Below, piece by piece: positions 6,853-20,021 of a stretch of DNA of 20,021 bases. Location: the IMG/VR virus record IMGVR_UViG_3300020169_000927, positions 1 to 20,021 of that record. One strand, 5' to 3'. The stretch is from a virus. The position numbers and the translations under genes are program-made. Each line of letters opens with the position of its first letter. Positions within the stretch are counted from its first letter, which is position 1. The notes under the pieces were generated by a model. It was not told where the DNA came from. It did no database searches and saw only the letters and a list, made by a program, of their open reading frames with translations.

Positions 6853-7221
6853 ATGAAGACAACTACAATTGCAATTGCCATGACTATGTTGGCATCTACA
6901 GTATCAGCAGCAGACCTAGATATTGGTGGTCAAACCATCTCAGCTGGCGGCGAGCTTGATATGAACTATACAACTGGCACAGAACTATGGGCATTGGATT
7001 TTACTCCTAAAGCCGGTCTTAATGCCTTTGGTGTAGACTTCTCAGTGGATACAACACTTGATGTTATGTCTTTGAACGATGCTTCTAAAGAATCATTTAC
7101 AGGCCTTGACTTTGTTGCTGGTTATACAATTGGTGGCGGGCTTCGTGCTTACACCGAAGTTGGTACAAACTCAGACCTAGAATTTGGTGATGTGACAATG
7201 GGCGCTACATTCAACTTCTAA
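6853..7221 (+). CDS. Small secreted protein with outer-membrane barrel features
   Basis: The 122-residue precursor has a clear Sec signal peptide (MKTTTIAIAMTMLASTVSA, likely cut before ADLDIGG). The mature part of about 103 residues alternates hydrophobic and polar residues in short strands (LDMNYTTGTELWALDFTPKA, GLRAYTEVGT, LEFGDVTMGATFNF). It ends in Phe with another Phe two residues before, the C-terminal signature read by the BAM machinery. About six to eight short strands are possible, small for a barrel. It could alter phage receptors, permeability or surface exclusion. It has its own upstream region with palindromes and a strong terminator behind it. The signal peptide is confident; the barrel and role are inference. 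Confidence 0.65.
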   Translation: MKTTTIAIAMTMLASTVSAADLDIGGQTISAGGELDMNYTTGTELWALDFTPKAGLNAFGVDFSVDTTLDVMSLNDASKESFTGLDFVAGYTIGGGLRAYTEVGTNSDLEFGDVTMGATFNF

Positions 7222-7957: not shown

Positions 7958-8363
7958 TGCTGAATTAGGATTTAGTTTTAAGAACCCATCCTTTAGTGGT
8001 AATGGGTATTCTAGTCATGTCTTGAGTGTAGAGCAACTTCAGCATAATAGAATAGAAGATCGTAAAGATGAAGCTGAGGCCGAAGCTAGACGGATCGAAA
8101 GAGAGTTGGAGAATACTACTCTCAATAAATTTATTAAAAACTTAGAATCAAGAATCTATGCTACACTCAGTAAGCAGATGGTTGATTCTATGTTTGCTTC
8201 CTGTACAGGCGAGACGTGTCCAACAACAGGTACTACAGAGATTGAAGGTAGTACAATAGAGTGGACTAAAGATCTGGTAACAGAAGAAATAACATTAACT
8301 ATTACAAATGCTGATGGAACCACAACCATAACAATACCAGGCGCAGGGGAGTTTGCATTTTAA
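7893..8363 (+). CDS. csgF: CsgF-like curli assembly protein
   Basis: I place the start at ATG 7893, inside the upstream gene, because it gives a normal signal peptide (NLSLSLILLVLLPTQSNA) with cleavage before ELGFSFKNPSFSGN. That mature N-terminus is the CsgF hallmark (E. coli has a closely similar FQFRNPNFGGN) and is the part that plugs into the CsgG pore. Then come a charged helix (about 50-72), LNKFIKNLESRIYATLSKQMV (77-97; E. coli FTQAIQSQILGGLL region), and C-terminal strands IEWTKDLV and LTITNADGTTTITIPG (E. coli TDRKTGQTSTIQVSG). At 156 residues it is slightly longer than E. coli CsgF (138). A Cys pair (C104, C109) may form a disulfide. The stop overlaps the csgG ATG. The Shine-Dalgarno is weak, suggesting translational coupling. 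Confidence 0.88.
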   Translation: MINQNNLSLSLILLVLLPTQSNAELGFSFKNPSFSGNGYSSHVLSVEQLQHNRIEDRKDEAEAEARRIERELENTTLNKFIKNLESRIYATLSKQMVDSMFASCTGETCPTTGTTEIEGSTIEWTKDLVTEEITLTITNADGTTTITIPGAGEFAF

Positions 8364-9163
8364 TGAGATACTTTTTGATAACGCTTTTGATGCTGGCTGG
8401 TTGTGTAGATCCAAATCAAATGGCTCCTATGAATGCTAAACCAATGGTGCAGTCTTCACCCAATGACATATTCAACTATAAGCAGTTGGATGGTAAGAAG
8501 ATGACAATTGCTGTATATGGTTTCACTGATAAGACAGGTCAAAGAAAACCTAGTATGACCACTTCAAACCTTAGTAGCGCGGTAACGCAGGGCGCTGAGG
8601 TGTGGGTAATAAAGGCTCTGCAGGATGTTGGGGCGTGTACCTGGTTTGAGGTAGTTGAAAGAGTAGGTTTAGATAATCTAGTTAAAGAAAGACAATTGGT
8701 TAGAAATACCAGAGAAATATATGAAAAGAAATTGGCTAAAGGTCCTACACCTTTAAAGCCTATGGTATTTGCAGGTTTAATATTAGAAGGTGGAATAGTA
8801 GGATACGACTCAAGTGTTGTAACAGGCGGGACAGGCGCTAGGTATTTGGGCATTGGTGCTCAGATGGATTACAGAGTCGATACAGTGACAATAGTTATGC
8901 GGTTAGTAAGTGTCAGTACAGGTAAAGTATTACTGAGTGTTGCCACAGAAAAGACCATCGCGAGTCATAGGAGTGGAGCAGATGTGTTTAAGTTTTTAGA
9001 CATGGGCACCAAACTCATAGAAGCGGAAACTGGCTACAGTATGAATGAGCCAGTTAATTATGCAGTTAGATCAGCAATTGAAGCTGGCGTTATTGAATTG
9101 ATTAATGAAGGAGAATCAAAACAATTCTGGACATTCTTAGAAGATCCTAAGAATGGCGGATAA
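8363..9163 (+). CDS. csgG: CsgG-like curli secretion channel lipoprotein
   Basis: The 266-residue protein aligns through its length with E. coli CsgG (277), the nonameric outer-membrane pore that exports curli subunits. Landmarks are a lipobox LAGC with lipidated Cys 14, MTIAVYGFTDKTGQRKP at 47-63, VVERVGLDNLVKERQLVR at 97-114, LEGGIVGYDSSVVTGGTGAR at 141-160 with YLGIGAQMDY after it, VSVSTGKVLLSVATEKTI at 182-199, ETGYSMNEP at 222-230 and SAIEAGVIELINEG at 237-250. At the pore constriction, E. coli Tyr51-Asn55-Phe56 corresponds to Ser/Met, Asn 69 and Leu 70, so the Asn is kept while both aromatic rings are missing. It is coupled to csgF and lies 11 bases before the first curlin gene. No CsgE adaptor gene is seen. 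Confidence 0.95.
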   Translation: MRYFLITLLMLAGCVDPNQMAPMNAKPMVQSSPNDIFNYKQLDGKKMTIAVYGFTDKTGQRKPSMTTSNLSSAVTQGAEVWVIKALQDVGACTWFEVVERVGLDNLVKERQLVRNTREIYEKKLAKGPTPLKPMVFAGLILEGGIVGYDSSVVTGGTGARYLGIGAQMDYRVDTVTIVMRLVSVSTGKVLLSVATEKTIASHRSGADVFKFLDMGTKLIEAETGYSMNEPVNYAVRSAIEAGVIELINEGESKQFWTFLEDPKNGG

Positions 9164-9174
9164 AGGAAAGTACA

Positions 9175-9906
9175 ATGAAAAATCTTAATAGATATATCAT
9201 TATGGGCGCGTTGTGTTCAGTAACACCTGTTACAACAATAGCTAACGACATCTACATTCAACAAGTGGGTGATACACTAGACTTGGACATCGTACAAGAT
9301 GGACAAGATAACAGTATTGGAACATCACCTGGTATGGGCAATCAAGATATGGTCTTAGGTTCAGCTGGCAATGCATCTGACAACATGACATTTAGTATTA
9401 CTCAAACGGGTAATCAGAACAAAATCACTGCTCAAATATTAGGTAGCACCTACACCGGTACTTGGACATTCACTGGTGATAATAATGAAGTTGATTTACT
9501 TTGTTCTAGCACTTCAGCAGCTAACTGTGGTAACGTGACTTTAAACATTGCCGCTACTGGTGATAATCAAGATTACACAATCAACATTGGTGAAACAACA
9601 GATGCAGGTTCTGCTACTATTAACTTCACTGTAACAGATGATGATAATATTATCGCTACAGATGTAAATGGCACAAGTGCTGATATCACAGTTGTTATTG
9701 ATGGAAGCACTAGCTTAGAAACAATTGATAGTACATTGGATATTGATGTATCAGGTAATGGTGACATCAACGGACACACAATTAACTTTGATGCTACAGG
9801 TAGAGGTCATACAATTAAGTTTGATCAAAGCGGTGTGTATGACAACACAATTGACTTAACAACAAGTGGTGATAATCAAAATATCAACATCACACAATCT
9901 GACTAG
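9175..9906 (+). CDS. Curlin-like secreted repeat protein 1 (divergent)
   Basis: The 243-residue precursor starts with AGGAAAGTACA upstream of the ATG and has a signal peptide (YIIMGALCSVTPVTTIA) with likely cleavage before NDIYIQQVGD. The mature protein is rich in Asn, Asp, Thr and Gly with very few Lys or Arg. Q-x-G motifs of curlin repeats occur at 30-32, 41-43, 77-79 and 218-220, and related T-G-D-N segments at about 100, 128 and 231 have lost the Gln. The mature N-terminus closely matches that of the second curlin-like protein (NEVYVRQVGD). It follows csgG by 11 bases, so it is an expected CsgG substrate: a nucleator (CsgB role), minor subunit or specialised fibre protein. Two Cys residues (C110, C118) could form a disulfide. 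The repeat fold is inferred. Confidence 0.8.
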   Translation: MKNLNRYIIMGALCSVTPVTTIANDIYIQQVGDTLDLDIVQDGQDNSIGTSPGMGNQDMVLGSAGNASDNMTFSITQTGNQNKITAQILGSTYTGTWTFTGDNNEVDLLCSSTSAANCGNVTLNIAATGDNQDYTINIGETTDAGSATINFTVTDDDNIIATDVNGTSADITVVIDGSTSLETIDSTLDIDVSGNGDINGHTINFDATGRGHTIKFDQSGVYDNTIDLTTSGDNQNINITQSD

Positions 9907-9934
9907 TTGACCTTTTTCAACTTTGTGGTATAAT
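9907..9934 (+). promoter_or_regulatory. Sigma70-like promoter
   Basis: TTGACC at 9907-9912 begins right after the first curlin stop, and TATAAT lies at 9929-9934 (spacer 16). It would give the FecR, second curlin and cyclase genes their own, host-polymerase-driven transcript, independent of the late promoter at 7294. Confidence 0.75.
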
Positions 9935-9961
9935 AAGGTGCCAGCCTTAGTGAGGGGCAGT

Positions 9962-11089
9962 ATGTTTAGAAGTTTATTAATTTTCTTAATGACAGCTTCA
10001 CCGGTCTTCGCAAACATCGGTGAAGTTTCTACTGTCAGGGGAAGTGGTAGTGGCGCGATTGAACGAGGCAATGATGCCATCGATGCTAAAAAGGGCGTTG
10101 GTGTTGAAATGCTTGATACAGCAGTCACTGCTAACTCCTCTATGCGTATTGACTTCATAGATGATACGAGAGTAGATATTACTGAACATTCACGGTTAGT
10201 TATAGATGACTTTGTGTATGATCCAAACACTGGTACAGGTTCATTGGGGCTTAAAGCTAGTCTGGGTACTGTAAGATATGCGTCTGGTCAGATAGCAAAG
10301 AATAGTAGACAACGAGTTAGAATAAGAACACCATCTGCAACTATTGGTGTACGTGGTACAGACTTTGTTATGGTTATAGACGAAGCTGGCGGAAGTATGA
10401 TAACTCTATTACCAAGTTGTGATACAGCTGGTATGTGTTATACAGGAGAGATAACAGTAGAGACAGATGCAGGGTTTGTTATTCTTAATCAAGCCTTCCA
10501 AGCAACCATTGCTTCAAATTCAATGTCTCCTCCCACAAAACCTTTACTATTAGACTTAGACGAATCAATGATAAACTCATTGTTGATACTACGCAAAAAG
10601 AATCCTTATTATGTAGAAGAAGCTCAAATAATAAAGAGGAAGCAGGCAGACGCAGATTTTCTTGGATTAGACTTTTTACAATACGAAGGTCTTGATTATG
10701 ATGCACTAGTTGACTCTATCGAAGGCATATGGATTACAGCGTTGGAAGAAACGGATCAGATGCTCCAGAATTTATTATATGATATGTTAGATCAACTTAA
10801 CAAAGCGTTGATGAGATTGTTTCAAGATGAACTGTCAATACAGAACTCTTTTTTATTATCAGAAGAAGCAAAGGTATATGGATATAATCCTATGACAGGT
10901 CTTACACTACTAAATGAAACTCCTAATTGGGTATTCTCGCGGAGAGATGATAATGAAGGAAACTTTGTGCAGTTAAGATTAAATCAGGGATATGGTTATA
11001 CTATAGACCTCAAACAGGGAGACTGGGAGTTATATGACTATAGGTTGGGCGAAAGCACTAATAATAGCATCAACATTATCCAGCAGTAA
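9962..11089 (+). CDS. Secreted FecR-domain protein
   Basis: I choose ATG 9962, which has GAGGGG just upstream and lies after the promoter; the frame opens earlier, but ATG 9923 overlaps the -10 region. The 375-residue precursor has a signal peptide (FRSLLIFLMTASPVFA) and then a FecR domain: GEVSTVRGSGSGAIERG, a central SMRIDFIDDTRVDITEHS strand pair, and RVRIRTPSATIGVRGTDFV, the hallmark TP-x-A-T-x-x-V-RGT-x-F motif, at about 120-138. Classical FecR has a cytoplasmic anti-sigma part before this domain; here only the periplasmic part is present, so sigma regulation is unlikely. The C-terminal 190 residues are mainly helical and not recognised. The gene overlaps the curlin gene by 56 bases and is in one operon with the CHASE2 cyclase. 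FecR-domain proteins often neighbour CHASE2 cyclases in bacteria, suggesting one sensing unit. Confidence 0.8.
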   Translation: MFRSLLIFLMTASPVFANIGEVSTVRGSGSGAIERGNDAIDAKKGVGVEMLDTAVTANSSMRIDFIDDTRVDITEHSRLVIDDFVYDPNTGTGSLGLKASLGTVRYASGQIAKNSRQRVRIRTPSATIGVRGTDFVMVIDEAGGSMITLLPSCDTAGMCYTGEITVETDAGFVILNQAFQATIASNSMSPPTKPLLLDLDESMINSLLILRKKNPYYVEEAQIIKRKQADADFLGLDFLQYEGLDYDALVDSIEGIWITALEETDQMLQNLLYDMLDQLNKALMRLFQDELSIQNSFLLSEEAKVYGYNPMTGLTLLNETPNWVFSRRDDNEGNFVQLRLNQGYGYTIDLKQGDWELYDYRLGESTNNSINIIQQ

Positions 11090-11888
11090 CTGTTGGGCAA
11101 ATGAGGTTTATGTGAGGCAAGTCGGCGATAATACAGACATGACTATCACTCAAGATGGTGCTAACAATAAGATAACTGGTTTGGGTGGAAATTCGAGTAA
11201 AGCTCAAGTAAGTGGTAATAACACAAGCACTACATATACACAAACAGGTGACACTAATCAAGTGCGTGTATGGATGAGTTCTGGTAATGGAATAAACAAT
11301 GTCTCGCAAACAGGCGATAACAACTCAGCAAGATTAGATTGCCATGGTAATAATTGTGTTATTGATATTGAACAAAATGGCAATTCTAATTATGCAAATT
11401 CCGAACTAGGTAATGGTGGTGATTATGATCAAACTATTATTATTGATCAAGATGGTAATTATAACTTTGCAAAAGTAGAAGCAAACGGTGATGACAATAC
11501 TATTACTGTAGACCAAGATGGTAACAATCATATAGTACATGGGTACGGTAACACACCAATAACTGGTGATAGAAATAACATTACACTTGTACAAGATGGA
11601 TCACAATACAATCAAGCTCAGGCGAAGGTTGTTGGAAATGATAACACAATAGATGGATATCAAGGTGGACAATATAACTTTGGTAGACTGGTACTAACAG
11701 GTGACGACCATGATGTGACGAGTTCACAGGAAGGTACTGGATCTCATAGTATGACTTTAGACCTTACTAATGGTGGTGGGGCGTATACTGTAAATACAAT
11801 ACAAAACAGTTCAAATAGCCAAACATATTCAATGACAGGAACATGCACCAATTCAAGTGGATGTGGAATAACAGTAACACAATATTGA
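11034..11888 (+). CDS. Curlin-like secreted repeat protein 2 (major amyloid candidate)
   Basis: ATG 11034 has GGGAG at 11025-11029 and gives a signal peptide (KALIIASTLSSSNCWA) cut before NEVYVRQVGD; the start lies inside the FecR gene in another frame. The 284-residue precursor has ten Q-x-G motifs (Q at 29, 40, 70, 92, 114, 139, 161, 187, 210, 232), most spaced 22-26 residues, each followed by N or D and preceded by a beta-prone strand (TITVDQDGNN, IIIDQDGNYN). This is the curlin strand-loop-strand pattern known from CsgA and CsgB, which stack as a beta-solenoid amyloid. It is about twice the size of CsgA (131 residues mature) and very acidic. It ends GITVTQY, which could be a capping strand. 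Expected to leave the cell through the CsgG-like pore encoded upstream. Fibre formation is inferred. Confidence 0.85.
   Translation: MTIGWAKALIIASTLSSSNCWANEVYVRQVGDNTDMTITQDGANNKITGLGGNSSKAQVSGNNTSTTYTQTGDTNQVRVWMSSGNGINNVSQTGDNNSARLDCHGNNCVIDIEQNGNSNYANSELGNGGDYDQTIIIDQDGNYNFAKVEANGDDNTITVDQDGNNHIVHGYGNTPITGDRNNITLVQDGSQYNQAQAKVVGNDNTIDGYQGGQYNFGRLVLTGDDHDVTSSQEGTGSHSMTLDLTNGGGAYTVNTIQNSSNSQTYSMTGTCTNSSGCGITVTQY
11118..11735 (+). repeat. Tandem curlin repeats within the second curlin gene
   Basis: This stretch encodes residues 29-234 with the ten Q-x-G units. Units are diverged at the DNA level, with recurring words such as CAAGATGG and CAAACAGG for QDG and QTG, so the array is old rather than a recent duplication. 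Confidence 0.75.
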
Positions 11889-11895
11889 GGATATA

Positions 11896-13932
11896 ATGAA
11901 AAGATTATTAAGCCCATGGTGGGCACTACTCACACTAGCAGCTTTAACATATATGTTTGCTACTCCATCTAACTTTATTCAAAGTGTTAAATTAAATTAC
12001 TTTGATACTCTTATTGTTAATCAAGAGCCTGTTGAGAATAACATATACGTTGCAGAGATAGATGAAGCAGCATTAGAGAAGTATGGTCAATATCCTTTTC
12101 CGAGAGACATATATGGTGATATTATCAGAGACATATACGATCGTGGTGCTGGATTAGTTGTATGGAATATAATGATGCCAGAACCAGATCGTTTTGGTGG
12201 TGATGCTGTTTTAGGTAATGTGTTATATGACTATCCAGTTGTAGTAGCAACAAGACCATCACATAAGAGTGTTAATGAAGCTATCAATCCTGGGGCTGCT
12301 ATTATCAATCCAGAATACTTAGATATGCTATTACCATATGATGGAATTATAGCCAACATATCTGACATTGAATTTAATGCAGTAGGATCTGGTATAGTAA
12401 GCACAGAACCAGAAATAGATGGTGTAGTTAGAAGGATGCCTACTGTAGCTGTAGTAGACGGCACGTTATACCCGTCTCTGGCGCTAGAAACCCTAAGAGT
12501 AGTGGCTGGTGATATATCTTTTCAAATTAAACTACAACCCAATGGTGTAGAGAAAATGAGAATACCTCAGTTTGGTATTATCCCAACAGATAATGAAGGA
12601 CGTGTATGGATTGATTGGTCACAGAAATCTAAGAATGTATCTGTAGCAAACATGCCAGATGACTTTGCTGGAGCGGTTGTTATAGTAGATGTGACTGCAG
12701 CAGGTATTGCTAACCCAGCACCTACTGCCATTGGATCAGTCTTTGCTGGACAGACTCAAGCGGCTGTTCTTGGAACAATGTTTGCTGGTACTAATATACA
12801 AAGACCAGATTGGGCAAGTGCTATAGAATTATTATCATTGGTTGTTGGTAGTTTACTGTTGATCATTTTAAGCAGATGGATGATTGTGGGTCTAATCACA
12901 ACAGTAGCTCTTATTGGATCTATAGTACCGTATTCAATGTATGCGTATGCTACAGATAAGTTTCTTTTAGATGTTACTGCTCCTACTATCACATTTGTGA
13001 TCATAGCGCTACAAGTATACGGTATAAAGTTTGTTAGAGAGTTCTTAGAGAAGCAAGCAATCAAGAAACAATTTGCTGGTTATGCATCAGCAGAAGTTGT
13101 AGAGATATTACAGAAGAATCCAAAATTAATTAAAGAAGGTCAGAAGAAAGAGGTATCCATTGTATTCTCAGACCTTAGAGGTTTCACCCCATTGGGTGAA
13201 TCGTTCGGAGATGATGTTAAAGGCTTGACAACAGTGATGAACAATTATATGGATGCAATAACAAAACCTGTGCTAGATGCAGATGGAATGATTATTAAAT
13301 ATATTGGTGATGCATCAATGCACATACACAACGCTCCAATCAATGATCCGCAACATCCTAAGACAGCGGTTCAGGTTGGACTCAACATGCTAAAAGCAGT
13401 GGAGAAATTTAATGAAAAACTTATGGAACAAGGTAAACCGAAAGTTGGTATGGGTGCCGGTATTAATACTGGCCTTGGTTATGTTGGAGAGATGGGTTCT
13501 AATGCCCGCCACTCCTATGATATCCTCGGAGACAGTGTCAGTACAGCCGCTAGACTCGAAAGCGCCTGTAAAGGATACGGAGTAGTCTTAATTGTAGGAC
13601 CTGCAACTTATGATGCTACAGAGAACGACTTCTTTTATTTGAAGTTGGACGATTTGGCAGTTAAGGGTAAGTCTATAGGACTAGAAATTTATACAGTCCT
13701 AGATATTGAAAGGTCCAAGCATGGCGTGTCCATGCTTGACCACAACACAATGCATAACTTTTATAGAACACAACACTTTGATCAAGCTATTGTTATCTGC
13801 GAACAACTAAAAGGCTGCTTTGAAGGTAAGATGGATGAATACTATGATATATGGATTGATCGTTGTGAGTATATGAAGAAACAAGATTTGTCTTACGATT
13901 GGGATGGAATCTTTAGAGCAACCTCAAAATAG
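11896..13932 (+). CDS. CHASE2-domain class III adenylate cyclase
   Basis: The 678-residue protein has an N-terminal membrane segment (about 7-23), an extracytoplasmic CHASE2 domain (about 30-300; note VAEIDEAALEKYGQYPFPR and EPEIDGVVRRMP), three membrane spans (about 309-378), and a cytoplasmic class III cyclase domain (about 415-600). Visible catalytic residues: metal-binding D426 in VFSDLRGF and D472 in KYIGDA, purine-selecting K468 and D542 (the Lys/Asp pair typical of ATP use), and transition-state R553 in AARLES. The usual transition-state Asn is replaced by Ser 549 (GDSVSTAAR). The C-terminal tail (YRTQHFDQA through WDGIF) is the standard ending of bacterial CHASE2 cyclases, so the gene looks complete. 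GAGGATATA gives a ribosome site. Predicted role: sense an extracytoplasmic cue, perhaps through the FecR-domain protein, and change host cAMP. Activity depends on tolerance of Ser 549. Confidence 0.92.
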   Translation: MKRLLSPWWALLTLAALTYMFATPSNFIQSVKLNYFDTLIVNQEPVENNIYVAEIDEAALEKYGQYPFPRDIYGDIIRDIYDRGAGLVVWNIMMPEPDRFGGDAVLGNVLYDYPVVVATRPSHKSVNEAINPGAAIINPEYLDMLLPYDGIIANISDIEFNAVGSGIVSTEPEIDGVVRRMPTVAVVDGTLYPSLALETLRVVAGDISFQIKLQPNGVEKMRIPQFGIIPTDNEGRVWIDWSQKSKNVSVANMPDDFAGAVVIVDVTAAGIANPAPTAIGSVFAGQTQAAVLGTMFAGTNIQRPDWASAIELLSLVVGSLLLIILSRWMIVGLITTVALIGSIVPYSMYAYATDKFLLDVTAPTITFVIIALQVYGIKFVREFLEKQAIKKQFAGYASAEVVEILQKNPKLIKEGQKKEVSIVFSDLRGFTPLGESFGDDVKGLTTVMNNYMDAITKPVLDADGMIIKYIGDASMHIHNAPINDPQHPKTAVQVGLNMLKAVEKFNEKLMEQGKPKVGMGAGINTGLGYVGEMGSNARHSYDILGDSVSTAARLESACKGYGVVLIVGPATYDATENDFFYLKLDDLAVKGKSIGLEIYTVLDIERSKHGVSMLDHNTMHNFYRTQHFDQAIVICEQLKGCFEGKMDEYYDIWIDRCEYMKKQDLSYDWDGIFRATSK

Positions 13933-13935
13933 ATT

Positions 13936-14646
13936 TTAAAAATTTGTTATCTGTACATGCTTTTCAAATGACGGGAAGGACCATAAGTCATCAAGGTTTC
14001 CCTTACGGTGACTTTCTATTAGTATATCTCTGTTTAAGACATCTGGATGTGTTTTTCTGTCCATATTAGAATTTGGATAACCGATCCCAACAATACACTT
14101 TGCAAATGTGTTTTTAATACCTAACACATCATCTTCTCTAAATGCAGAACAACAGCCTGTTCTATATCCTAATAAATTGGCCGTAAGTAATAATTGACCT
14201 ATAGCTATTCCTGTACCAATATCAATTATTCTATTTTTAACTATATGGGTATACAGATCCTCTTTATAGGTCTCATCATCAACAATCAGGTGAGTTCTTG
14301 CTCTGGCTTTAGATTGATCCCAATCATCACAGAAAGCTATTATTAAATTTGCATTTAGCTGAGAATTGGTTACACAGTATTCATCTGGAGTATCTCCATT
14401 ACTACTTATAGGAACACTATCATCAGCTACAGAGAAGTATTTTGTTCTGCTATAAACTTCCTCTATTTTAGACTGGTTAGAAGACCAATATATTTTGTAA
14501 TTAGTTTCATTCTGTTTTGTAGGTGCATATCGAATAGAGGAGAGCATCAAATCAATGTCTTCTTGTGGAATGTTTATATCACGTTTCCAGTTTCTTTGAC
14601 ATGGATTAGTGTTTTTTATAGCTGAGAGAAGCTCATCTTTATCCAT
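13936..14646 (-). CDS. Nitroreductase-family FMN oxidoreductase
   Basis: A 236-residue protein read leftward from an ATG preceded by AGAGGAA. It fits the nitroreductase fold: QRNWKRDINIPQEDIDLML at 17-35 (FMN phosphate-binding Arg region), SSIRYAPTKQNETNYKIYW at 36-54 (the APS-x-N-x-QP loop), DIGTGIAIGQLLLTANLLGY at 142-161 (central helix followed by the GCCSAF segment), and CIVGIGYPN near 184-192. Members reduce nitro groups, quinones or flavins, or act as dehydrogenases in biosynthesis. It ends 3 bases from the convergent cyclase gene without a terminator hairpin, and starts divergently from the short SDR gene across a 157-base AT-rich gap. The substrate is unknown; the neighbouring oxygenases suggest a place in the same redox pathway. 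Confidence 0.75.
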   Translation of the reverse strand: MDKDELLSAIKNTNPCQRNWKRDINIPQEDIDLMLSSIRYAPTKQNETNYKIYWSSNQSKIEEVYSRTKYFSVADDSVPISSNGDTPDEYCVTNSQLNANLIIAFCDDWDQSKARARTHLIVDDETYKEDLYTHIVKNRIIDIGTGIAIGQLLLTANLLGYRTGCCSAFREDDVLGIKNTFAKCIVGIGYPNSNMDRKTHPDVLNRDILIESHRKGNLDDLWSFPSFEKHVQITNF

Positions 14647-14738
14647 TATATTCCTCTTTATTTAACTTATTTAGTGTATCTTTTATGTTACACTTTAGCG
14701 TTATTTTAAAATTAATTGTAAAAAAAGCAAATTAGTTG

Positions 14739-14767
14739 TTTACATCTATATCTATATGTGTTATATT
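14739..14767 (+). promoter_or_regulatory. Extended -10 sigma70-like promoter
   Basis: TTTACA at 14739-14744 and TATATT at 14762-14767, spacer 17, with TGT directly before the -10 (extended -10). It starts the two-gene SDR and AspH-like transcript, and excludes the longer SDR reading frame from ATG 14756, which would begin upstream of the transcript start. Confidence 0.65.
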
Positions 14768-14803
14768 AGTTATAGAAACAACAACAAAGTAAAGATTTAC
14801 ATA

Positions 14804-15226
14804 ATGGAATTTTATATTACCGGTACTAGACGAGGCTTAGGTAAAGCTCTTGTTGACAAGTACGGAAACGTAAATACATTAGATGAATGTGATGTGTTTA
14901 TTAACTGTAAGCACAATGGCTTTGAGCAAGTAGAAATGCTATACAAAGCAGCTAAGTTAGACAAACGAATCATTAACATTGGATCTCACGCAAGTGATTT
15001 TACTTACCTACACGAATATGCTGTAGAGAAGAGAGCATTACGTGAAGCAAATGCTATGATGTTTATAAAAGGTATAAAGACTACTTGTCTTAACTTTGGA
15101 TATATAGACACAGAGAGATCAGCTCATAAAGAAGTTGAGAAGATGTCTATAGATTATATAATAGAGGTTATAGAATGGGTACTACTACAACCACACTCAG
15201 TCAAGGAACTAACAATATCAGCATAG
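14804..15226 (+). CDS. Very short SDR-like oxidoreductase
   Basis: The start is ATG 14804, the first one downstream of the promoter, giving 140 residues. The protein opens with a Rossmann NAD(P) motif, FYITGTRRGLGKAL at 3-16 (TGxxxGLG). It retains the other SDR landmarks in compressed form: DVFINCKHNG at about 30-39, an active-site Ser in INIGSHAS at about 57-64, Y-x-x-x-K in YAVEKRAL at about 73-80, and CLNFGYIDTE at about 95-104 (the PG-x-I-x-T segment). Normal SDRs are about 250 residues; here several helices between these motifs are missing, yet the frame is intact. It may be a minimal active reductase, or a binding protein that kept only the cofactor core. It is co-transcribed with the AspH-like gene. 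Confidence 0.7.
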   Translation: MEFYITGTRRGLGKALVDKYGNVNTLDECDVFINCKHNGFEQVEMLYKAAKLDKRIINIGSHASDFTYLHEYAVEKRALREANAMMFIKGIKTTCLNFGYIDTERSAHKEVEKMSIDYIIEVIEWVLLQPHSVKELTISA

Positions 15227-15654
15227 ACATTGATCATATACTATTAGAGATATCCAGTCTTCCTGAATATAACGAACAGCTATCGTTACAGATATCTTCT
15301 CAAGGAGCGTCTGCAGAAGGTAGGTTTAATAACCTATCATCTAGTGAAAAGGATTTTAATCATTTTGCTTATGATCTACCATATACCAACTCTGTTATAA
15401 GCTCTCTAGGAATGTATCGCACTCGTCTAATGAAGATGACAGAAAAGACATGCTATACCTATCATTGGGATCCATCTAAGAGAATGCATATACCTTTAGT
15501 TACCAACGACGATTGTTTCTTTGTTATAGAGGATCAGGTCAGTAGATATCCAGCAGATGGTTCTCACTACTTAGTAGACACAACTAAGAAACACACATTT
15601 GTTAATGCTTCTAGGTTTGAGCGGATTCACATTGTGGGTTGCGTAGATAGTTAA
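15175..15654 (+). CDS. Aspartyl/asparaginyl beta-hydroxylase-like oxygenase
   Basis: ATG 15175 lies within the end of the SDR gene (52-base overlap) and has GAGG 7 bases upstream. The 159-residue protein matches the AspH-like double-stranded beta-helix: YHWDPSKRMHIPLVTND at 96-112 (R103, H105, the R-x-H-x-P motif), and KKHTFVNASRFERIHIVG at 138-155 (distal H140, 2-oxoglutarate-binding Arg at 147 or 150). This family hydroxylates peptides or small molecules with Fe(II) and 2-oxoglutarate, and often uses two His ligands without the carboxylate. The N-terminal 60 residues are not recognised. Its end overlaps the convergent gene by 44 bases. Substrate unknown. Confidence 0.7.
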   Translation: MGTTTTTLSQGTNNISIDIDHILLEISSLPEYNEQLSLQISSQGASAEGRFNNLSSSEKDFNHFAYDLPYTNSVISSLGMYRTRLMKMTEKTCYTYHWDPSKRMHIPLVTNDDCFFVIEDQVSRYPADGSHYLVDTTKKHTFVNASRFERIHIVGCVDS

Positions 15655-16165
15655 TATCACCTTTATAAAACACATACTGTAGATTGTTTGCTTTCTTTAA
15701 AGGTGGGCTTCCTATCTGTAGCTTATCTGGATACACATTCCATTCTTTAAATATATCAGGGCGGGCTCTTTTTAGTTTAGTAAAGAAACCTTTACTGAAT
15801 TCACGTGTCCAAATTATAAGAGGTACATTAAGATTATCTACACAATAGGTAAGCTCTTTAAAATCATCCACCTTTTCAAACATAGATGTTCCATCTGTTC
15901 TAAAGTCTTTGTAATGATAATACCTGGACATGACTCTTACTACTCCAGGATATATATTCTCACATCCAGAGCATAACACAGGTTTGTTATTATCAAATAC
16001 AAAGTTAAACATTACCATTCTATCTAAGTTTAGATTTGAAAAAGAGTAGTTATCTGATAATCTATCGGTGTCTTTTTCTATTTGTAGTTGTAGAAAAGCA
16101 TCGTTACACAAGTCAGTTTCTTCATAAGTAATTTTCGAGTCTTTTATATAAGAAACTATTCTCAC
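15611..16165 (-). CDS. Hypothetical protein, last gene of leftward oxygenase operon
   Basis: A 184-residue protein that I do not confidently recognise. It starts in an ATGA overlap with the upstream oxygenase gene and ends inside the convergent AspH-like gene. Features: a central strand MVMFNFVFDNNKPVLCSGC, then GVVRVMSRYYHYKDFRTDG, which weakly recalls the acetyl-CoA motif strand and loop of GNAT acyltransferases, then VPLIIWTREFSKGFFTKLK and a C-terminal LQYVFYKGDINYL. There is no signal or membrane segment. Strict coupling to the operon suggests a part in the same pathway, possibly as an acyl- or amino-group transferase, but that is a guess. Confidence 0.6.
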   Translation of the reverse strand: MRIVSYIKDSKITYEETDLCNDAFLQLQIEKDTDRLSDNYSFSNLNLDRMVMFNFVFDNNKPVLCSGCENIYPGVVRVMSRYYHYKDFRTDGTSMFEKVDDFKELTYCVDNLNVPLIIWTREFSKGFFTKLKRARPDIFKEWNVYPDKLQIGSPPLKKANNLQYVFYKGDINYLRNPQCESAQT

Positions 16166-16827
16166 AGAATTGATTCAACTCTATCTTTAAACGAATGGAA
16201 GTCAATAGCAGGTATGTTATTCCATCTTGTGACAAAGGCACATCTAGGAGCCTCTGTAATAATTACTCTATGCATTATCTCTGTATCAATAAGACAAGGC
16301 TTATCAATAATAATCTCACCAATCTTACGATCAGCTAAAAACTTTTCAAACTCTGGTGTACCTTGACCCATTTGACTTTGCGCTTTAAATTCGTGGTAAT
16401 AGTAATACCCCTGAGCGTTCTTTTCAGGTAGGCATATCTCATCTTCTAATGTTTCAAAATAATCTAAACGACTCGCTCCAAGTACTGGATATATGATATT
16501 GTATCCTTGGCTGTGTTCTCTATTCTGATCTATATCAGTATGAGGGAATACATCTTTCTCTGTACTATCAGCAGTATTAAATCCAGTTGATCTAAACTGA
16601 TAATGTGGATGTACTTTTCTATGTTGAGATAAGATAGGATCATATATAGCTTCATAGCCAGTGTCTTCACCTGTCATATTAAACTCTAATGAATAACTTT
16701 CGAATGGTGTCTTACCAAAAACATTAAAGTCCTCTCCAGCTCTCGCACCTTTTACTTTTTCATATAGATCGAGTAACAGTTCGTGTTGAGGATCAACGTC
16801 TACATATTCTGCAATGCCTGGTATCAT
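16162..16827 (-). CDS. 2OG-Fe(II) oxygenase-like protein
   Basis: A 221-residue protein coupled at both ends by ATGA overlaps. The iron-binding pattern of 2-oxoglutarate oxygenases is visible: FPHTDIDQN at 94-102 (H96-x-D98), then a strand YNIIYPVLGASRLDYFE at 109-125, and PCLIDTEIMHRVII at 177-190 with distal H186, followed by Arg 195 for 2-oxoglutarate. Spacing of about 90 residues between the first His and the distal His fits the prolyl-hydroxylase/PhyH-like fold. Such enzymes hydroxylate or otherwise oxidise peptides, nucleobases or small molecules. Marine T4-like phages often carry several. Its neighbours here are redox and transfer enzymes rather than DNA genes. Confidence 0.7.
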   Translation of the reverse strand: MIPGIAEYVDVDPQHELLLDLYEKVKGARAGEDFNVFGKTPFESYSLEFNMTGEDTGYEAIYDPILSQHRKVHPHYQFRSTGFNTADSTEKDVFPHTDIDQNREHSQGYNIIYPVLGASRLDYFETLEDEICLPEKNAQGYYYYHEFKAQSQMGQGTPEFEKFLADRKIGEIIIDKPCLIDTEIMHRVIITEAPRCAFVTRWNNIPAIDFHSFKDRVESIL

Positions 16828-17228
16828 AATACACCTTCAATAAATGGATCATCATATTCTTTTACGAACACACCATCTTCTATAAGCATAGCATATCGTT
16901 TACATCTGATACCCATATAATCACCAAAGTCAACATCTTTACCAATGTACTTACTAAACACTGCTAACGGATCTGCTACTGCGTCAATATCAGGATGACC
17001 ATGTAGTACATTCCATTCATGCATAACACTTGGATCATTAACAGCAACAAATACTACCTTAGCATCTAGCTTATCTAAATTCTTTGCAAAGCCTGGTAGA
17101 TGTCTTTTAGTACATCCTGGAGTAAAAGCTCCTGGTACTCCACATAGTATAACTTTACCTTGTGGTAATGTATAAGGTACATAGTCATCATCTTTAAGTA
17201 TGTATAGCCCTTTAGTGTCTAATCCCAT
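16824..17228 (-). CDS. Peroxiredoxin, Prx5-like
   Basis: A 134-residue thioredoxin-fold peroxidase. The peroxidatic site reads VPGAFTPGCTKRHLPGF at 31-47 with Cys 39, the PGAFTP-x-C-x-x-HLPG signature of the Prx5 subfamily. VFVAVNDPSVMHEW at 59-72 and RCKRYAMLIEDG at 108-119 are the other conserved strands (the first usually followed by W). It is slightly shorter than typical Prx5 (about 160), lacking part of the C-terminus. No clear resolving Cys is seen, so it may be a 1-Cys enzyme. It removes hydroperoxides, which would fit a pathway with several oxygenases and a flavin reductase. ATG 17228 overlaps the upstream gene by 10 bases. Confidence 0.85.
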   Translation of the reverse strand: MGLDTKGLYILKDDDYVPYTLPQGKVILCGVPGAFTPGCTKRHLPGFAKNLDKLDAKVVFVAVNDPSVMHEWNVLHGHPDIDAVADPLAVFSKYIGKDVDFGDYMGIRCKRYAMLIEDGVFVKEYDDPFIEGVL

Positions 17229-17803
17229 TTCTCATTCCAATCATTATATTCATTTTTAAAATAATCTTTATTGTCTGATTTATATAGTAGATAGTTGTTT
17301 ATCTTATCAGACATCTCAATAAAGTGTTCTTGGTTATCTGGTATAACATGCTTCCAACCATATGTAGATACGTCTGTATGTATTACATTAGCACCCAACT
17401 TCTTAAATATATCTTTAGTCTGAGCCATGTGTCTACTACCACCCTCTTTACCACTAGGAGTAAACGTAAGAAGTATTACATGCTTATTAGACCAAGGATA
17501 TCCTTTGCCATGCTCTAAGTTCATATTTGATATTACTACAGCCCAGTCTAGTAGGTTCTTTGTACTTGAACTCATCATACCAGTAAACTCTGGTATTGCA
17601 AATACAAACTTATCAAACTGATACATCATATCAAATACAGCAGTAACATCTTCAGGTATATCTGCATCCATACCATTAACATTTACCACAGGTATATCAT
17701 AGTCAGCCAAGCAATCTATTCTGTCAAACTCACAACTTAATAGCTGTAGCCCTCTATAATTAATACTGTTAGGTGCTTGTGATGTACTCAGTGCTAATAT
17801 CAT
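17219..17803 (-). CDS. NADPH-dependent FMN reductase-like flavodoxin-fold protein
   Basis: A 194-residue protein with the flavodoxin-like FMN reductase layout: LALSTSQAPNSINYRGLQLL at 3-22 (phosphate-binding loop, S-x-x-S-x-N-x), FDKFVFAIPEFTGMMSSSTK at 63-82 followed by NLLDW (the P-x-Y/F-x-G-x-x-x-x-x-K-N-x-x-D motif that holds the isoalloxazine ring), and NKHVILLTFTPSGKEGGSRH at 105-124. These enzymes supply reduced flavin or reduce quinones. It follows the AspH-methyltransferase gene with an ATGA overlap and precedes the peroxiredoxin. A role as electron supplier for pathway enzymes is plausible. Confidence 0.8.
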   Translation of the reverse strand: MILALSTSQAPNSINYRGLQLLSCEFDRIDCLADYDIPVVNVNGMDADIPEDVTAVFDMMYQFDKFVFAIPEFTGMMSSSTKNLLDWAVVISNMNLEHGKGYPWSNKHVILLTFTPSGKEGGSRHMAQTKDIFKKLGANVIHTDVSTYGWKHVIPDNQEHFIEMSDKINNYLLYKSDNKDYFKNEYNDWNEKWD

Positions 17804-19026
17804 AATGTTACATCCGCCACTAATCTGCGACCCGCAAATATTTCAAGGTCAAGTTTATATTCTTTAAATTCTTTATACATGTTTTTATATTCTTCCATAT
17901 CGTCTGATATTCTATTTAAAATCAAACCAGCTTTCCAATGACGTTGCCATGGCATAGGTTCTTGAATGATAGCATTAGGGCTTTTATATATACCACTAGT
18001 AATCTTATGAAAAAACTCAAAATGATCATCAGGTCTGTATAACAATACACCGCTCCACATAACTTGATCTACATCAAAGTCAACAAGGAAAGCTTCTAAG
18101 TTATTCCAAGACTCGTGTCTAAATTCTATATTATTATAATCTTTCCACTTCTCTGTTGCTATATCAATAGGCTCCTTAGATGTATCAAACCCCATATACT
18201 CAAAATCAGTATAACCTTTTGAGTGTAATATATCTAATACAGGTCCATGTCTACAGCCAACATCAACGATACCTTTACATTGTTTTTCTATAATAATATT
18301 TGCTTGAGTTTCAAATAGCTCATATGCTTCTGGTGAATCGAGATAAGCCATATCACTAAATTCATAATCTTCCTTTAGAGGTACCTTCTGACCGTTGTCT
18401 ATTTTTGTTTTAATTTCTGGCCACGGTACATTCTCACTCGGTTGGTTCCAAAAGTCGTGATCAACATCAAATAGATCATCAACGTCCAGATAACAGTTTA
18501 ATGCTCTGCGAGGTATATTAGTCGGGTCATTTAATGTATAAACACCATGAGCTTGAGTGTTATTATTAAACATTACTATGTCACCTGGGCCATATATACA
18601 ATGTTCATATTCACCCGTCTCATTATTTTTTACATAGAGGTGTACATCATTTTCCATAGCTATGTTAACAGTAATAGGAGGTCTACCAAATTTACTAGGG
18701 TCATCTTCAAATACTACTTTATCCCATTCTGATATTCCAGTCACGTGTGCATTTGATAGTGTATCTACATGCTCTAACAGCTCAGTAGTCTGACATCTCC
18801 AATCCCACATCCAGCCTTTTTTCTTTATAGGGTATCCTATACCTCTTTCAATTGCTTCTTGCAAATGTTTGGGGAAGTTTTCTTCAGAGATATTGTGATA
18901 CCAAATCCCCAGTGGGTTAGGATGTTCAATATGTTCTTCATACACTTCTAGTGGAAACAGTTCATCAAGCTCTCTTACAAACTCTCTCCAATCATAATCT
19001 AGTTTAAATTTTCTAATAACGCTCAT
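17800..19026 (-). CDS. AspH/cupin-like oxygenase domain fused to SAM methyltransferase
   Basis: I start at ATG 19026, in an ATGA overlap with the aminotransferase gene; the frame extends 10 codons further into that gene. The 408-residue protein has two parts. Residues about 1-185 look like an AspH/cupin beta-helix: RPPITVNIAMENDVHLYV at 115-132, GPGDIVMFNNNTQAHGVY at 146-163 (His 160) and RRALNCYLDV at 173-182; a first His at the R-x-H-x-P position is not evident. Residues about 215-408 form a class I methyltransferase with motif I IVDVGCRHGPVLDIL at 243-257, an acidic MGFDTS at 268-273 and VMWSGVLLY at 302-310. The fusion suggests consecutive modification of one substrate, possibly one held by the cupin-like domain. 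The substrate is unknown. Confidence 0.7.
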   Translation of the reverse strand: MSVIRKFKLDYDWREFVRELDELFPLEVYEEHIEHPNPLGIWYHNISEENFPKHLQEAIERGIGYPIKKKGWMWDWRCQTTELLEHVDTLSNAHVTGISEWDKVVFEDDPSKFGRPPITVNIAMENDVHLYVKNNETGEYEHCIYGPGDIVMFNNNTQAHGVYTLNDPTNIPRRALNCYLDVDDLFDVDHDFWNQPSENVPWPEIKTKIDNGQKVPLKEDYEFSDMAYLDSPEAYELFETQANIIIEKQCKGIVDVGCRHGPVLDILHSKGYTDFEYMGFDTSKEPIDIATEKWKDYNNIEFRHESWNNLEAFLVDFDVDQVMWSGVLLYRPDDHFEFFHKITSGIYKSPNAIIQEPMPWQRHWKAGLILNRISDDMEEYKNMYKEFKEYKLDLEIFAGRRLVADVTL

Positions 19027-19841
19027 GTCATATCTTTGAATAAAGGTGTTAGACATATACGAGCAACATCACCTGCTCGCCTTCGCCTTGTGTAGTATCT
19101 ATCTTTGGTTGTAGCCAAGTAAAATACATCTGAAGGAGTAAACTCATATTCTTTACAAATATCTAATTGCATCTTTCTATACCTATTAAACATGCTATCC
19201 ACAGCAAAGTTATTCATTATTAATTGCATGGTTCTAACACCACCATAGTTCCAGTTTTCATATTCTTTTAATCTATGTAATGTAGGATGTGGCTCTTTTG
19301 TATACACTAAGCCTAATCTTTGCCCAATCAATCCAAAACCTTTAGAGAAAGAAAAGAACACTTGCTCTGTTCGTTCAGGAACATTAATAGTCTTCATGGC
19401 CGTTGAACTAACATATGTGCAATCAAGTATGACAGGTGATTGAGCATGAGAATAAATTATATTTCCATCAGCTGCTGCTGGGTTAGAAAGATATAGAGGT
19501 TGACCTAAAACTTTTGTACCCTTTCCACCAATCATATTAGCATATTCATATTCACCTTCAGGTAGCTGCCATTTTCTATCTTCGGTAAGTACCCAATGAT
19601 GTATAGCATCAGTAACACCGTGAGTATAATAACAGTATGGGAACTCTGATAAGTCAATCATACTGCTTACCCAATGCCTATGAGTAGCCTCAACATGATT
19701 TAATTCATCAGTTGCTTCTCCTGAACCCCTACTGAAATATGTGTCCGATACTTTCTGAGTCTGTAGTAGCGTTTCTACATCTCTAATACGAGGTACATTT
19801 ACATATGGAAAGTTTCTTAGTTCAGCTTTTCGAGTAGTCAC
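19023..19841 (-). CDS. Compact PLP-dependent aminotransferase-like protein
   Basis: Translation begins at GTG 19841 with GGAG upstream. The 272-residue protein keeps the core of fold-type I aminotransferases: YYTHGVTDAIHHW at 71-83 (cofactor phosphate-binding turn), ILDCTYVSSTAMK at 138-150 (the Asp contacting the pyridine N), VFFSFSKGFGLIGQRLGLVY at 161-180 with the Schiff-base Lys 167 and Arg 175, and RICLTPLF at 261-268 (end of the small domain, carboxylate-binding Arg). It is about 100 residues shorter than usual, mainly lacking parts of the C-terminal domain, but the frame is intact. It could transaminate an amino acid or act as a PLP lyase. It is coupled to the methyltransferase fusion downstream. 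Confidence 0.75.
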   Translation of the reverse strand: MTTRKAELRNFPYVNVPRIRDVETLLQTQKVSDTYFSRGSGEATDELNHVEATHRHWVSSMIDLSEFPYCYYTHGVTDAIHHWVLTEDRKWQLPEGEYEYANMIGGKGTKVLGQPLYLSNPAAADGNIIYSHAQSPVILDCTYVSSTAMKTINVPERTEQVFFSFSKGFGLIGQRLGLVYTKEPHPTLHRLKEYENWNYGGVRTMQLIMNNFAVDSMFNRYRKMQLDICKEYEFTPSDVFYLATTKDRYYTRRRRAGDVARICLTPLFKDMT

Positions 19842-20021
19842 CAGCAGCTCTCCATAACATACGGTCTCCCATCACAGGTGTTCTGCGATGTAATGTACTC
19901 AACTGATCCATTAAGAGTAAATCACCCTTCGCAAATACATGATGTCTTTGATACTTACTTTGAAAAATAATAGGCTTTAGACGTTCAATAAGTTCATTAT
20001 GATCTATAACTGTTTTCTTAT
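19822..20021 (-). CDS. TauD/TfdA-like 2OG-Fe(II) dioxygenase, C-terminal part
   Basis: The right edge cuts this leftward gene; 65 codons remain before TGA at 19824-19822. The visible end reads HHVFAKGDLLLMDQLSTLHR, then RTPVMGDRMLWRAAGDYS. This is the closing segment of TauD-type dioxygenases: GDLLLMDQ strand, distal iron ligand His in LHRR, and the 2-oxoglutarate-binding Arg in DRMLWR. The stop lies 20 bases inside the aminotransferase gene, so it is the upstream member of the operon, and the operon's promoter lies outside the window. Members include taurine, asparagine and clavaminate-type oxygenases; the substrate cannot be told from this fragment. Confidence 0.7.
   Translation of the reverse strand, partial: KKTVIDHNELIERLKPIIFQSKYQRHHVFAKGDLLLMDQLSTLHRRTPVMGDRMLWRAAGDYSKS

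Follow-up and report, generated by a model that had tools for sequence, protein, structure and literature searches.

A recurrent oxygenase, aminotransferase and methyltransferase gene cluster of marine phages that may build an amino-acid-derived small molecule

Introduction

As a rule, the auxiliary genes of phages encode single enzymes that adjust the metabolism of the host. Pelagiphages can carry several 2OG-Fe(II) oxygenase 'partner AMGs' near each other (PMC9599517). Those oxygenases pair with ferrochelatase, unlike the ones described here, and the main text of that work contains no aminotransferase, desaturase, FMN reductase or peroxiredoxin. Phage Mosig EXVC030M (MT647606.1) holds the present cluster in its genes 00072-00082; its genome announcement does not discuss it (PMC7892664), and no published description of the cluster was found in the literature searched. 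The original prediction, which knew of no phage pathway with this set, therefore needs qualifying: Mosig is an isolated phage and carries the set, annotated gene by gene.

In this study, we analysed a window of 20,021 bases (the whole of IMG/VR record IMGVR_UViG_3300020169_000927), in which the cluster lies at 13936-20021. The Mosig cluster shares its core with that of the window and its overlapping contig L002, with nitroreductase, AspH17, AspH2, GNAT, HxDH, TauD, methyltransferase, desaturase, aminotransferase, peroxiredoxin and FMN reductase families. Its gene order is different, TauD and the methyltransferase are separate, and tail-fibre genes adjoin it.

Gene content and operon structure

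The four oxygenase-like domains, aminotransferase, FMN reductase, peroxiredoxin, nitroreductase and SDR predicted in the window were all present as open reading frames. Seven overlapping genes run leftward (minus strand) from 20019 to 15611 and constitute a tight operon. They encode the 3' end of a TauD-type oxygenase (19822..20019; Pfam TauD, 1.5e-7), a small fold-type-I PLP aminotransferase, HisC/CobD-like (19023..19841), a fusion of a 2OG-oxygenase-like domain with a class I SAM methyltransferase (17800..19056; Methyltransf_31, 2.7e-6), an NADPH-dependent FMN reductase-like flavoprotein (17219..17803; Pfam FMN_red, 9.1e-17), a Prx5-type peroxiredoxin (16824..17228; Pfam Redoxin, 1.3e-15; phrog_2281, 4.6e-17), HxDH, a predicted orphan 2OG-Fe(II) oxygenase (16162..16827), and F14, a GNAT-fold acyltransferase-like protein of 184 aa (15611..16165). 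Adjoining this run are the genes of AspH12, a small AspH-type oxygenase (15175..15654, plus strand; Pfam Asp_Arg_Hydrox, 4.1e-8), of SDR13, a short SDR-like protein of a conserved family with TGxxxGxG and YxxxK motifs but no Pfam match (14804..15226, plus strand), and of a nitroreductase-family flavoprotein (13936..14646, minus strand; Pfam Nitroreductase, 1.7e-6). The overlaps within the run had been put at 4-20 bases; they are real, but with the called starts they measure 20, 34, 4, 10, 4 and 4 bases, a range of 4-34. The true start of the fusion gene may be 19026 rather than the called 19056, judging by the start in its relatives (MxVIRKF), and the 34-base overlap then becomes 4. In the PHROGs search the peroxiredoxin and the methyltransferase domain were the only cluster proteins with matches, no specific NCBIfam equivalog exceeded its cut-off, and the solved-structure search with the methyltransferase and FMN reductase profiles gave no match.

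Contig L002 overlaps the window by 4,081 bp (98.7% identity) and adds the missing 5' part, namely an SCD-type desaturase, a second AspH-type oxygenase (AspH2) and the whole TauD-type oxygenase (L002:8021-8788; Pfam TauD, 8.3e-14). The operon starts in this contig, after divergently oriented genes, and TATAAATA lies 29 bases upstream of its first ATG. Extension to the right had been proposed as the way to the operon start and to any carrier protein, ligase or peptide gene; it reached the start, and the viral side yielded none of the other three. Within the seven-gene run there is no room for a RiPP precursor peptide gene, though such a peptide could be encoded elsewhere.

Distribution and conservation of the gene set

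IMG/VR was scanned six times, with five different genes and the fusion. When the window, Mosig and one MAG contig that looks phage-like were added to the matches, there were 275 viral loci in 73 groups, defined so that loci of different groups share no exact sampled 150-mer. The core comprises the desaturase, AspH2, TauD, aminotransferase, methyltransferase and GNAT protein. Where the loci had 5 kb of flanking sequence on both sides, at least five of the six core families were present in 23/25 groups with the aminotransferase, 19/19 with the methyltransferase, 13/14 with HxDH and 22/29 with the desaturase, and adjacency was recurrent for peroxiredoxin and HxDH (23/24 groups), FMN reductase and peroxiredoxin (20/23) and SDR and AspH12 (13/16); these figures overstate independence somewhat, as the groups are phylogenetically non-independent and cluster members served to define the families. 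Elsewhere, the frequent sub-module of FMN reductase, peroxiredoxin and HxDH gives way to other oxygenases and radical-SAM enzymes; its members are optional, since only about half of the groups carry them. The nitroreductase also recurs near the cluster. The most conserved viral member is HxDH (98% identity between the window and locus L004).

Four types of fusion link successive enzymes: oxygenase-methyltransferase in the window, TauD-methyltransferase in L005, where the TauD domain occupies the oxygenase place of the methyltransferase fusion, and methyltransferase-GNAT and SDR-AspH12 in L071. The dN/dS values (0.01-0.20) reveal purifying selection, and thus selection for function; with the recurrence of the set in partly conserved order across the 73 viral groups, they indicate that the cluster is more than chance. 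Independent occurrence of the genes had been named as the result that would speak against a pathway, and it was absent, as loci retrieved with one gene also contained the others. The exchange of oxygenase families between phages and the changing place of the whole region might suggest that independent oxygen, iron or redox auxiliary genes have gathered in a plastic region and do not form one pathway. However, the strong conditional co-occurrence, the recurrent adjacency, the four fusion types and the occurrence of a matching gene set in bacteria (one genome) make this disfavoured reading very improbable.

Among 50,697 phage records, the five core queries (methyltransferase fusion, HxDH, aminotransferase, desaturase and TauD) and AspH2 gave one match each, Mosig. 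The genome-contig scan with the HxDH family gave no match, and that with the aminotransferase gave one bacterium and one phage-looking contig. In the methyltransferase search (129 genomes of the order) and the AspH2 search (368 of the phylum), the full module was present only in genome G001 and part of it in G035, a bacterium in which a GNAT8 protein is followed by an apparent SET domain (by eye).

Bacterial relatives

Nearly the full set was found on contig JAFMBV010000002.1 of a Bacteriovoracaceae MAG (loci L075 and L079), at 95241-112491, and part of it in a second Bacteriovoracaceae genome. The contig shares with the viral clusters the aminotransferase, AspH2, AspH17, FMN reductase, HxDH, methyltransferase and GNAT families, and has two desaturases and two TauDs of the His-X-Asn (HxN) type described below. 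It differs in being bacterial, in having no labelled peroxiredoxin, and in adding an acyl carrier protein and asparagine-synthetase-like, B12-type radical SAM and HTTM-like (by eye) proteins. The same gene set in a bacterial relative supports a small molecule as the product.

The Bacteriovoracaceae loci (L075/L079 and L089-L097) are large islands in which radical-SAM/SPASM enzymes abound, as do small aminotransferases, proteins resembling asparagine synthetase and glycosyltransferase-like DGDN proteins; one island lies downstream of polysaccharide genes, and phages carry homologues of the island enzymes. Tandem desaturase genes were observed in L031 (3370-4903) and in G001 (contig C101:109815-111253), which suggests successive or distinct desaturation steps.

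Phages use multi-enzyme pathways for base modification, pelagiphages have base-pathway genes (PMC9599517), and some loci related to the cluster contain QueC-like and radical-SAM genes. Nucleobase hypermodification in phage DNA or tRNA is nevertheless highly improbable: no thymidylate-synthase-like, pyrophosphorylase or base-transfer enzyme was seen in the core, and relatives sit on bacterial chromosomes.

Desaturase and acyltransferase

The desaturase keeps, when aligned with SCD, all nine His and the one Asn of the SCD dimetal site (invariant H27, H32, H64, H67, H68, N157, H161, H182, H185 and H186) and has hydrophobic segments. Its His boxes and N...H pair align with those of acyl-CoA desaturase SCD1 (4ymk, 4zyo), but it has about 210 residues compared to 318-339 in the solved SCD1 chains and, unlike SCD1, belongs to an operon of oxygenases and an aminotransferase. 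Desaturases of the SCD type normally act on acyl chains, which counts against a small-molecule product.

The original prediction left F14 without an identity. Its model (pLDDT 84.3) had only GNAT-superfamily proteins among the listed Foldseek and VIA matches (best Z 9.8), and the fold is accordingly predicted to be GNAT. The GNAT8 family replaces F14 in Mosig-like phages. The likeness of F14 to acyl-homoserine-lactone synthases carries no weight, as its structural neighbours were tied.

A lipid is the main rival explanation, on account of the membrane desaturase and of the gene for an acyl carrier protein in the bacterial cluster. The module would then make or remodel an amino-acid-containing lipid: the GNAT enzyme would N-acylate an amino acid, the desaturase would act on its acyl chain, the AspH and 2OG enzymes would hydroxylate the head group or chain and the methyltransferase would methylate the head group, so that the membrane is altered late in infection. 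The SCD metal-site pattern, the hydrophobic segments and the GNAT fold agree with it, and ornithine-lipid pathways offer a precedent in joining an N-acyltransferase with several hydroxylases (PMC3972451). By contrast, no PlsC-type O-acyltransferase was found in the core, the GNAT proteins had no OlsB-type Pfam match (among the proteins scanned, none matched OlsB/OlsF-type acyltransferases or OlsA), and known aminolipid pathways have no role for the aminotransferase, peroxiredoxin or FMN reductase. Overall, we consider a lipid product rather unlikely.

Aminotransferase and oxygenases

The preferred reading, a small molecule derived from an amino acid, is favoured by the HisC-like aminotransferase with its carboxylate Arg, by the solved relatives of AspH2 and by the lack of a constant macromolecular partner. 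The aminotransferase matched Pfam Aminotran_1_2 only weakly (0.026), but a profile of 24 viral sequences reached HisC/CobD structures at 3e-4, and the residues of fold-type-I enzymes are invariant (S166-K167, D140 and the C-terminal R261). In class I/II aminotransferases such a C-terminal Arg binds the alpha-carboxylate, which here would indicate an amino-acid or keto-acid substrate. Among solved structures, AspH2 comes closest to a beta-hydroxylase from a nucleoside-antibiotic pathway and to L-proline cis-4-hydroxylase.

HxDH had no Pfam match. Its AlphaFold model (pLDDT 86.6) matched 2OG oxygenases (JMJD5/7, ALKBH5 and amino-acid oxygenases), and together with the invariant H96, H186 and R195 it predicts a 2OG oxygenase. 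The structural neighbours (ALKBH5, SnoN, BesD, JMJD5 and others) were tied at Z 10-11 and so do not tell the substrate. AspH2, HxDH and AspH12 retain HxD and the distal His. In the fusion protein, the oxygenase-like domain (approximately residues 1-205) has an HxD...H...R pattern and the methyltransferase occupies approximately residues 207-418.

In profile searches of the PDB, the TauD family had matches down to 6e-14. It shares with RdpA (6d1o) and TauD (1gqw) the fold family, the first and last His and the C-terminal Arg region, but these carry Asp as iron ligand while the cluster family carries Asn at that position (HxN for HxD) in 441/446 aligned rows, in viruses and bacterial relatives alike. 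The 2-His-1-carboxylate triad (HxD/E...H) of TauD/TfdA enzymes is thus lacking. Unrelated TauD-profile proteins of the control genomes, where the motif was readable, all had D or E except for one short false match. The HxG/HxA signature of 2OG halogenases (SyrB2/WelO5/BesD type) is absent as well, the residue being Asn and not Gly or Ala. Human AspH is active with two His ligands only (PMC13168262), so HxN implies neither inactivity nor halogenation. No description of an HxN iron triad was found in the literature searched. Tentatively, the cluster could be a virus-enriched natural-product pathway of marine phages whose TauD, with an unprecedented His-X-Asn iron site, possibly performs halogenation or other non-hydroxylating radical chemistry, the bioactive molecule being released late.

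Genomic location and timing

The exact T4-type late motif TATAAATA was present upstream of the operon in 12/54 groups (approximately 0.65 expected from its density); it was found at 48/617 other genes and 9/359 internal core genes. On this motif, the module is probably expressed late in infection. Flanking genes belonged to two tail-fibre-type families in at least 13 and at least 11 of 61 groups, while other copies adjoin uvsX or neck genes, and these varied flanks indicate that the module moves between sites.

The tail-fibre-type flanks, the position beside tail-fibre genes in Mosig, the late-promoter motif and the radical-SAM, DegT and glycosyltransferase-like genes added in some loci would fit enzymes that modify a virion or host-surface macromolecule (tail fibre, LPS or capsule) and thereby influence adsorption or keep out competitors. 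Yet the window and L002 have curli, FecR, cyclase and other genes as neighbours and not tail fibres, the copies beside uvsX or neck genes do not fit either, and a HisC-like aminotransferase would be odd for a protein or polysaccharide. A surface target is thus decidedly unlikely.

The curli (type VIII secretion) module of the window (8363-13932) encodes CsgG (6.5e-51), a curlin-repeat protein, FecR and a CHASE2-adenylate cyclase. It matches the T8SS module of pelagiphages (PMC9599517), which suggests a Pelagibacter-type host. In L071/L072, too, the cluster has a gene of the CHASE2-cyclase family nearby. Family F25, a small protein that seems to carry a signal peptide, recurs close to the cluster in several viral loci (window 6853-7221; L004:16119-16490; L005:5873-6295) and is possibly an envelope partner. 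The 287-aa protein encoded at 567-1430 resembles DpdA/TGT-type base-exchange enzymes by eye; it matched no Pfam family and only a PHROG of unknown function (2.8e-5). An anti-phage defence system was rejected, since a weak match to a generic methyltransferase (mad2, 8e-6) was all that the PADLOC models gave.

Proposed pathway and its significance

We put the probability at about one half that the cluster is a horizontally shuffled viral module which makes one small molecule from a host amino acid or amino-acid-like metabolite, probably late in infection. The original prediction of a tailoring pathway for an amino-acid-derived small molecule holds as the best reading, with which co-occurrence and adjacency agree; the product would be hydroxylated, desaturated, methylated and probably acylated. 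The PLP aminotransferase would set an amino or keto group, and the membrane di-iron desaturase would introduce a C=C bond or an equivalent oxidation. The Fe(II)/2OG oxygenases (AspH2, the HxN TauD, the methyltransferase-fused domain, HxDH and AspH12) would oxidise the scaffold, by hydroxylation or in other ways, the methyltransferase would methylate a group made by the fused or a neighbouring oxygenase, and the GNAT enzyme would acylate the scaffold. FMN reductase, peroxiredoxin, nitroreductase and SDR may perform redox steps or protect the iron enzymes. We infer the order of the steps, the substrate class and the late timing, together with any effect on the host or on competitors and the benefit to the phage. 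Against this reading, the viral core lacks genes for a scaffold-forming enzyme, a carrier or a peptide and therefore does not reveal the product, and several products are possible, since the oxygenase content varies strongly between phages. A DMSP-type pathway was rejected, having too few oxygenases.

For enzymology, the replacement of Asp by Asn in the TauD family raises a testable question of its own. Mosig was isolated on Pelagibacter ubique HTCC1062, so the product can be sought directly. If the preferred reading is true, abundant ocean phages would produce a specialised molecule inside the cells that they are killing, by means of a conserved operon of about ten enzymes, among them a membrane desaturase and as many as five Fe/2OG oxygenases.
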